64,000 nucleotides of DNA from Halorarum salinum (lineage in GTDB: Archaea; Halobacteriota; Halobacteria; Halobacteriales; Haloferacaceae): contig NZ_CP058579.1 of assembly GCF_013402875.1 (NCBI RefSeq), positions 744,001-808,000 on the forward strand. The letters run 5' to 3'. The notes below the pieces were generated by a model. That model was not told the DNA's origin, did no database searches, and saw nothing but the letters and a program-made list of their open reading frames with translations. The position numbers and the translations under genes were made by a program. How positions within the stretch are numbered: the stretch's first letter is position 1; every line of letters begins with the position of its first letter. Shown here one piece after another: positions 16,872 through 63,831 of this stretch.

Positions 16872-16944
16872 CGGGCGGCGAGGGATTTGAACCCCCGACC
16901 TTTTGGTCCGGAACCAAACGTTCTGTCCGCTGAACTAGCCGCCC
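16872..16944 (-). tRNA. tRNA-Arg (anticodon CCG)
   Basis: The reverse strand folds as a complete 73-nt tRNA with no intron. It has acceptor GGGCGGC/GCCGCCC, D stem GTTC/GAAC, anticodon stem TTTGG/CCAAA with loop TTCCGGA (anticodon CCG, reads CGG), and T stem GGGGG/CCCTC with loop TTCAAAT. The discriminator is G and CCA is not encoded. A TATA-like CGTTTAAGG at 16969-16977 lies 25-33 bases ahead of the 5' end on this strand. Confidence 0.95.
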
Positions 16945-21767: not shown

Positions 21768-22348
21768 GACCGGTCACGACCCCAAGACTCGGTTTCGACG
21801 TCGGGCGATTCGTCGCCGAGCAGTTCCCGAAAGTCCCGTCCACGGCAACCGCGGCCACACTTACCTCGGAACTCGCCCTCGCTCGCAGGCTCGCTCGCGT
21901 GAACGGAGGTCAGCCGGCACGCGCCGACCGCACACTCCCGAATAAACCACGTGGCGCGCGGCGGCCAAGCGGAGCGCGGCCGCTCGTGCGAGGGACGAGC
22001 ACCGCAACGACTGAGCGAAGCGAAGGAGCCAGGAGCACAGGAGGCTGGGGAGGGTGAGGTGCGGTTGCGGTCGGGTGGGACTGAAAGGGGCCGGCTGGCT
22101 ACGCGAACCCCGGACCCGGTGAGGCGAGCGGAGTGAGGCGAGCCTCGGGAGTCGCAGCCCGCGCAGCGAAGCAAGCAGGACCGTCTCCCGTAGCAAGCAC
22201 CGCAGCGACCGCAGGGAGCGAGGAGCGCAGCGCGGTCCGCGGGAGCGTAGCCAGCCGAGGGCTTCCGAGGCGGTCATCGCAGCCGCATCTCGAGCAGCAC
22301 AACCAAATCCCGCCGAAAAGAGTTCTATTCAGTCGCCGAAAAAACAGT
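21768..22348. other. Long intergenic region holding dispersed element copy 1
   Basis: About 580 bases with no credible gene. Positions about 21870-22270 are filled by GAGCGAAGCGAG-type purine-rich repeats and form copy 1 of a dispersed element described separately. ORFs in this stretch are by-products of the repeat composition. Confidence 0.6.
21980..22276 (+). repeat. Dispersed structured intergenic element, copy 1
   Basis: The element contains the conserved box GGGACTGAAAGGGGCC at 22077-22092. Left arm CGGCTGGCTACGC (22092-22104) is matched by a perfect complement at 22245-22257, followed by the GAGGGCTTCCGAGG box. Nested inside, CGGGAG (22146-22151) pairs with CTCCCG (22185-22190). The stretch upstream of the box is nearly identical to the outer part of copy 3 (AGGAGGCTGGGGAGGGTGAG). 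Arms differ in sequence from the other copies but stay self-complementary. Confidence 0.75.
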
Positions 22349-28980: not shown

Positions 28981-29446
28981 ACCCGGACGCGACTGTCGAT
29001 CCACCCACCGTCAGCGCCCGCCGGACCGCCGACCGGCACCGGCCGCGATACCGCCGCTGGGCCGCGACCGTCGGATACCCGCCGCGGTCCGAGCGGTATC
29101 CGAGTGGCGACGCCGTCCCGGGAAACCGGAGGGAGGGACCGAAAGGGGCCGCTGCCATCGGGGAAGGCGGACGACGGTGAGGCGAGCGAAGCGAGGCGAA
29201 CCTCGAAAGTCGCAGCCGACGAGCGCAGCGAGGAGGACCGTCTTTCGTAGCAGGCACCACAGCGGAGTGAGCGAAGCGAACGGAGCGAGGGGCGCAGCGA
29301 GGCCCCCGACCCGATGGCCGCGGGGGCTTTCGCGGTCGTCGCGGCAGTGGTTGCGGAACCACGGTCGGCTCCAGCAACCGACGCCGAACGGAACCAGTAC
29401 CACGGGACCGCAGACCCTAAACCCGAACCCCACCCCACACCCGACA
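28981..29446. other. Intergenic region holding dispersed element copy 2
   Basis: About 466 bases without a supportable gene. Most of it (about 29107-29370) is copy 2 of the dispersed element. The last 60 bases, rich in A and C, lead into endA; ACCCTAAACCCG at about 29414-29425 is a weak TATA candidate for that gene. Confidence 0.55.
29107..29370 (+). repeat. Dispersed structured intergenic element, copy 2
   Basis: It carries GGGACCGAAAGGGGCC at 29135-29150 (one base different from copy 1). Left arm GCCATCGGG (29154-29162) pairs with CCCGATGGC (29310-29318), followed by CCGCGGGGGCTTTCGCGG at 29318-29335, identical to copy 3. The inner pair CGAAAG (29204-29209) and CTTTCG (29242-29247) replaces CGGGAG/CTCCCG of copy 1 with both sides changed together. 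GAGCGAAGCGAG-type repeats fill the rest. Confidence 0.75.
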
Positions 29447-57884: not shown

Positions 57885-57957
57885 AGTCCCATGGGGTAGT
57901 GGCCAATCCTGTTGCCTTCTGGGGGCAACGACGAAGGTTCGAATCCTTCTGGGACTA
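57885..57957 (+). tRNA. tRNA-Gln (anticodon CTG)
   Basis: A 73-nt tRNA: acceptor AGTCCCA/TGGGACT, anticodon stem TTGCC/GGCAA (extendable by G-C) with loop TTCTGGG (anticodon CTG, reads CAG), T stem GAAGG/CCTTC with loop TTCGAAT, discriminator A. The sequence AGTCCCATGGGGTAGTGGCC is typical of haloarchaeal tRNA-Gln. No intron and no encoded CCA. Confidence 0.93.
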
Positions 57958-63310: not shown

Positions 63311-63831
63311 GCCTCACCCTTCCGTCTGCTTGGTCACCGACTTCAGTTTTTCATTGGAGTGGTACAGCACCGTAGTGCAAACCGCGAAAGCCCCCGCGGC
63401 TGTCGGCTCGGTGCGGCCGCTGCGCTCCTTGCGTTCACTCGCTCTGCTCGTTCCCGCTGCGGTGCTTGGCGGTCCGCGCCGTCGCCGACAGCCGCGGCCC
63501 CTTTCAGTCCCACCCGACAGCACCGCACCTCACCCTCCCCAGCCTCCTGCGCTCCTCGCGTTCACTCGCTTCGCTCGTTCACGCTCCGGTGCTCGTCCCT
63601 CGCGCGCGTATGCTCGCCCCACGAGGGGGCTCGCGTCGCGCGCGCCGATCGGCCGGTTCTCCGCGTGACATCCCCCCGAAAAATCCGGCCACGGCGTTTG
63701 CAGGGAGATCACGCCGGGACGGCCGACCCCGCCCGGGTTCGGGTTCCGAGGGCTCGGAGCGGTCGATTCCCCTCGCGTCCCGCCCGCCCGTCACCGGGCG
63801 GTTTACGGTCGCGCGGCCGCTCCGATAGCCC
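63286..63831. other. Intergenic region holding dispersed element copy 3
   Basis: About 546 bases without a supportable gene. Positions 63372-63620 are copy 3 of the dispersed element in reverse orientation. The stretch 63660-63831 leads to the methyltransferase gene; no clear TATA box is seen. Confidence 0.55.
63372..63620 (-). repeat. Dispersed structured intergenic element, copy 3
   Basis: The complement of GGGACTGAAAGGGGCC lies at 63496-63511, and the complement of CCGCGGGGGCTTTCGCGG at 63382-63399 (identical to copy 2). The arms are CCGCGGCTGTCGGC (63394-63407) and GCCGACAGCCGCGG (63484-63497), a perfect 14-bp inverted repeat differing from copies 1 and 2. The arm spacing is shorter (76 bases versus about 140-147), so an inner part is missing. 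Confidence 0.75.

Follow-up and report, generated by a model that had tools for sequence, protein, structure and literature searches.

What keeps the arms of a dispersed repeat complementary when their sequences differ from copy to copy? This question is raised by the window, the whole 64,000-nucleotide stretch of haloarchaeal DNA analyzed here, in which an earlier note described a three-copy intergenic element with arms that vary between copies and pair within each copy, and suggested that it may be a structured RNA or a hairpin-dependent mobile element. The positions given for the boxes and arms of the three copies are correct, as is the extragenic placement. The copy number, however, is far larger: the box GGGACYGAAAGGGGC occurs in 61 exact copies in the 4.26-Mb home genome (26 forward and 35 reverse), whereas the reversed control pattern has none, which excludes chance, and a covariance model finds 85 matches, the second replicon included.

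Side-by-side reading of the home-genome copies reveals one shared architecture, and the boxes and arms are therefore parts of a single long imperfect hairpin of approximately 120 bases, a fold that is seen within single copies. On the G-rich strand, the 5' part is composed of a G-rich leader, GGGYGGGACT, GAAAG, GGG, a 14-base arm, a second helix, and AAGCACCGCAG; the 3' part continues with a variable short hairpin, GAGGAGCGCAG, the second helix, the complementary arm, GGG, and CTTTC. In the folded core, the outer helix is GAAAG/CTTTC, and a GGG.GGG internal loop, which is conserved, separates it from a 14-bp stem that can have nearly any sequence. The inner helices contain G.A mismatches as well as an A.A mismatch that is conserved, and they are capped by a GNA triloop. 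The plain form is represented by copy 3; copies 1 and 2 have a core with an additional hairpin, which is also present at a further locus (L026) and is missing from plain cores (table 1). The perfect pairing of arms proposed for all three copies holds for copies 1 and 3; in copy 2, nine perfect base pairs are followed by one T.C mismatch and four more pairs. Similarly, the exchange of CGGGAG/CTCCCG for CGAAAG/CTTTCG is a genuine covariation, with CGGAAG/CTTCCG in other copies, but it belongs to the inserted hairpin of copies 1 and 2.

Table 1. Parts of the three copies of the hairpin element in the window
Feature	Position	Strand	Sequence or remark
Copy 1 upstream domain	21951-22059	+	GTGGCGCG.. 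hairpin, GAGGGACGAG, GA-rich hairpin, GGAGGCTGGGGAGGGTGAGG (from sequence and coordinates)
Copy 1 left box	22073-22090	+	GGGTGGGACTGAAAGGGG
Copy 1 left arm	22091-22104	+	CCGGCTGGCTACGC; partner 22245-22257
Copy 1 extra hairpin within core	22117-22193	+	CGGTGAGG..CTCGGGAG..GGACCGTCTCCCGTAG
Copy 1 inner module	22195-22230	+	AAGCACCGCAG-hairpin-GAGGAGCGCAG
Copy 1 right arm	22245-22257	+	GCGTAGCCAGCCG; 13 bp, perfect with left arm
Copy 1 right box	22258-22267	+	AGGGCTTCCG
Copy 2 left box	29131-29148	+	GGGAGGGACCGAAAGGGG
Copy 2 left arm	29149-29162	+	CCGCTGCCATCGGG
Copy 2 extra core hairpin	29174-29250	+	CGAAAG/CTTTCG
Copy 2 inner GA-rich hairpin	29253-29297	+	
Copy 2 right arm	29310-29323	+	CCCGATGGCCGCGG
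Copy 2 right box	29324-29332	+	GGGCTTTCG
Copy 3 upstream domain	63528-63646	-	
Copy 3 left box	63498-63515	-	
Copy 3 full plain core hairpin	63385-63511	-	covariance-model match, 112.6 bits, E 1.9e-19
Copy 3 left arm	63484-63497	-	14 bp, perfect with right arm
Copy 3 inner module	63420-63467	-	
Copy 3 right arm	63394-63407	-	
Copy 3 right box	63385-63393	-	

Covariation extends well beyond the window. In a MAFFT alignment of 30 home-genome copies, 94.6% of the cells pair, compared with 82.3% after shuffling and 37-46% with slid partners, and both sides change at 15 pairs. The covariance model built from this alignment was then applied to other genera, a far larger and partly independent set. 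Among 57 distinct sequences, 351 cells are changed on both sides (shuffled mean, 92.5) and the 14-bp stem is 98.7% paired with all 14 pairs covarying, whereas slid controls are 30-44% paired over the whole structure; the alignment was fitted to the model and these counts lean toward it, but neither the margin over the controls nor the outer-helix variants depend on that fit. The outer 5-bp helix, nearly invariant in the home genome, covaries in the other genera (GAAAG/CTTTC, CGAAG/CTTCG, CAAAG/CTTTG, and GGAAG/CTTCC). For the home-genome copies, the covariation score is 0.292 versus 0.087 for shuffled alignments, and none of 500 shuffles scored equally high. In the other genera, the GGG.GGG loop persists beside the changing pairs in 53 of the 57 sequences and the A.A mismatch in 46, with A.C in 10 more. 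This set supports the suggestion that the stem is under selection, and purine-repeat filler is rejected.

The near-pairs indicate which strand folds. In 137 cores picked by boxes and arm complementarity, without the model, G.T outnumbers A.C by 52 to 18 (p 6e-5, an approximate value because the copies are related); 19 of the G.T near-pairs fall at a single position, and excluding it leaves 33 versus 17. A process acting on the duplex predicts equal numbers, and the folding strand is therefore the G-rich one. Taken together with this asymmetry between strands, the persistence of mismatches beside covarying stem pairs speaks for selection acting on a single-strand fold. Of 126 terminal loops, 97 have three bases, and GNA accounts for 75 of these triloops; GNRA tetraloops number only two, and there is no preference for GNRA or UNCG. 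The GNA triloop is characteristic of highly stable minihairpins of DNA, and its excess is a hint toward DNA. Furthermore, GGGTGG or GGGCGG is kept in 119 of the 137 cores, and these G tracts could form a predicted quadruplex with the hairpin as its loop.

The element is widespread within one archaeal class. It is present in 26 of 40 relatives, on Halobaculum plasmids, and in 176 of 242 haloarchaeal genomes representing 56 of 73 genera; at most 14 candidates were scored per genome in this class-wide search, and the per-genome numbers are floors. In a phylum-wide sample, no match lies outside the order of the window, to which all 23 positive genomes belong. The element is also missing from many haloarchaea, members of the same family among them. 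Rfam gives no match for it at the gathering threshold or at E values up to 1, and none of the papers searched contains the box sequence; the family is apparently undescribed. The sole Rfam matches in the window are two tRNA genes (16872-16944 on the reverse strand and 57885-57957 on the forward strand). Viral contigs contain only 16 scattered 15-mer matches, which give no sign of a viral source.

Individual sites are gained, lost, and rewritten. Of 40 sister-species loci fetched, at least 17, copy 3 included, are matched by an element at the corresponding position of the home genome, a retention that is overstated because the loci were picked for high model score; at these shared sites the cores differ and the flanking genes are 72-94% alike. 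At the copy 2 site, the sister genome G001 has arms CCGCGGCCATCGAG/CTCGATGGCCGCGG versus CCGCTGCCATCGGG/CCCGATGGCCGCGG in the window, with one G-C pair compensated to A-T, and its inner part is inverted relative to the window, whereas G002 retains only a collapsed GGGACTGAACGGGGCCGCGGGGGCGTTCG. Eight further sites include one (L019) at which both sisters have an orthologous gap shorter by approximately 375-410 bases and another (L006) with a remnant in G001. Occupied sites and much shorter orthologous gaps were both seen, with element ends that are not fixed to the base; neither exact ends nor a target duplication could be made out at the compared sites. An automatic count classifies the 61 home-genome copies as 43 full forward, 3 full inverted (5 by eye), 10 collapsed, and 5 degenerate. 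The best pair of these copies is 83% identical and the median pair 62%, and we therefore see no recent copying.

The surroundings of the copies follow few rules. With a crude gene caller that missed some real genes (e.g., hel308), the flanking genes are both in the same orientation as the element in 37 cases, both opposite in 30, convergent in 26, and divergent in 13. We found no orientation rule relative to genes, which leads us to reject a UTR or terminator role, and no bias along the chromosome or replication strand. No promoter or TATA box is common to the copies; some Halorubrum copies have a TATA-like box (TTTATAAATA) approximately 15 bases 5', which the rest do not share, and an own promoter was rejected as a general feature. 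The core is too short for a transposase gene, no partner box lies beyond 300 bp, and no autonomous version with an open reading frame between boxes was found in the fetched loci.

Several smaller regularities were observed around the cores. A module of the copy 1 type precedes most cores of the home genome, and the region 5' of the left box at loci L001-L056 falls into at least three unrelated types (GGCGCG.., GGTAGTC.., and GATGCGGCGGGCGC..); orthologous sites may carry different types, as if modules were exchanged. Five loci (L002, L012, L023, L038, and L246) have divergent element pairs in a dimer arrangement like that of BIMEs, and in several divergent pairs the upstream domains begin only approximately 14-22 bases apart. 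In 13 cases (e.g., L027, L033, L052, and L117), a right box recurs exactly 57 bases behind the right box, against a background of 0.04 box-like matches per 100 bases elsewhere, and these units share a conserved 29-32 base spacer, GGAACTGCTCCACGACGACCGAACCGACC; similar units of approximately 63 bases, with TTTATAAA, are found in Halorubrum. At L021, L042, L045, L051, and L054, short perfect hairpins (e.g., GTTCACGGGCGCACGCGCCCGTGAAC and GGGAGAGCGTGCTCTCCC) within the left arm region constitute a second, nested hairpin family.

We posit that these sequences are a non-autonomous dispersed palindromic DNA element, similar in kind to small mobile repeats (SMRs) or REPs, under selection for its single-strand fold, an explanation to which we give about an even chance. 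The G-rich strand, once single-stranded, would fold into the long imperfect hairpin; we infer that what folds is DNA, exposed as a single strand in replication or transfer, where a putative factor acting in trans may bind or cut it. Selection for such recognition would let arm sequences drift freely while pairing is kept, and hairpin-driven events in the DNA (inversion, deletion, and nested insertion) may rewrite the copies. We place DNA before RNA because of the free orientation, the lack of a shared promoter, the carriage on plasmids, and the turnover of sites. The interpretation in the earlier note is partly supported; neither of its two readings is proven. For the DNA element, gain, loss, inversion, and collapse are all seen, but no mobilizing enzyme was found and recent copying is not visible. 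The structured RNA is without a shared promoter, a fixed gene orientation, or an Rfam match.

The main rival, which we consider less probable, is a structured noncoding RNA family, in which the G-rich strand is transcribed from weak promoters of its own or by read-through and acts as a folded RNA, perhaps with a G-quadruplex formed from GGGYGGG, GGGG, and GGG behind the right arm. RNA would account equally well for the covariation and the G.T excess, and the conserved internal loops, the predominance of forward over inverted inner parts, the kept G tracts, and the TATA-like box ahead of several Halorubrum copies fit it as well. There is also a precedent in a haloarchaeal PATE, reported as a highly transcribed noncoding RNA (PMC10544981). 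Set against these points are, besides the deficits named above, the very short distance between the starts of divergent copies and the absence of a GNRA/UNCG preference. A related and somewhat doubtful proposal is a class-wide family of structured RNA, or of single-strand DNA, with a cellular role, whose covarying hairpin is clamped by a G-quadruplex; the molar potassium of haloarchaeal cells would favor such a clamp.

The copies might instead be functionless quasi-palindromes, whose self-complementarity is maintained as template switching and repair copy one arm onto the other and invert the middle. Such a process could make arms complementary and accounts for the inversions and collapses that occur, and at two loci (L007 and L032) the right box is changed to CCCCTTTC, as template correction predicts. 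However, neither the GGG.GGG loop nor the A.A mismatch should survive such a process, and both persist beside covarying pairs; the strand bias of the G.T excess and a structure common to 56 genera speak further against this explanation, making it unlikely. A host DNA site, such as a terminator or a nucleoid or segregation site, would be in keeping with the intergenic placement and the excess of convergent over divergent gaps, but we regard it as quite improbable for a sequence that many haloarchaea lack, that sister species gain and lose, and that has no orientation pattern. Least credible of all is a PATE or REP that depends on enzymes of the IS200/IS605 type, because although hairpin ends, the lack of a visible target duplication, shortness, and many copies are as in the PATEs of Haloquadratum (PMC3119063), the copy-rich genomes (G000, the home genome, and G001, G002, G008, G015, and G030) have no match to the Y1 transposase and only 0-6 to TnpB, and the motifs are missing from seven of eight TnpA/TnpB loci examined, leaving REP/RAYT and PATE origins unsupported. 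Separately, we observed that G000, G001, and G002 have no TnpA and 0-1 TnpB, unlike most relatives, and that copy number is highest in genomes poor in IS200/IS605.

The element is of interest beyond this window. Approximately three-quarters of the sampled haloarchaeal genomes carry the element, with up to approximately 85 copies each, seemingly unannotated, and it ranks among the clearest signatures of structure conserved over sequence. With it one can test directly whether selection for a single-strand fold acts on palindromic repeats or whether template switching only gives that appearance. It also points to a putative fold-recognizing factor in genomes without the usual enzymes.

Among known systems, structured noncoding RNAs are recognized by covariation beyond controls, which the element displays. 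Integron attC sites are likewise imperfect hairpins, variable in sequence and conserved in structure, with boxes and an unpaired spacer; cassette arrays are a feature of attC sites, and their boxes are unlike those found here. As in REPs and BIMEs, dispersed extragenic palindromes occur in tens to hundreds of copies, with paired inverted copies and compensatory changes, but the copy-rich genomes lack the RAYT-type (Y1) enzyme, and the hairpin element is much longer and has fixed internal loops. PATEs of Haloquadratum and other haloarchaea are also short, palindromic, transposase-free, and intergenic, with core deletions (PMC3119063, PMC10544981); their ends resemble those of IS605-type transposons, a resemblance that the hairpin element lacks at the few loci compared, and its copy-rich genomes are devoid of the Y1 transposase and nearly so of TnpB. 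Haloquadratum walsbyi has the nearest described elements, the small mobile repeats SMR-A/B, of approximately 110 bp with inverted terminal repeats and tens of copies, no transposase gene, no reported target duplication, and an unexplained mobilization, inserted within palindromes of other repeats and commonly >95% identical within a type (PMC3119063). The hairpin element is like them in size, inverted repeats, copy number, unexplained mobility, and insertion within palindromes, and it too is short of the length of a transposase gene, with repeats unrelated to known transposons at seven of the eight loci examined. Its copies fall short of the identity characteristic of SMRs, and it is set apart from them by covarying arms, a conserved mismatch pattern, and a class-wide range.
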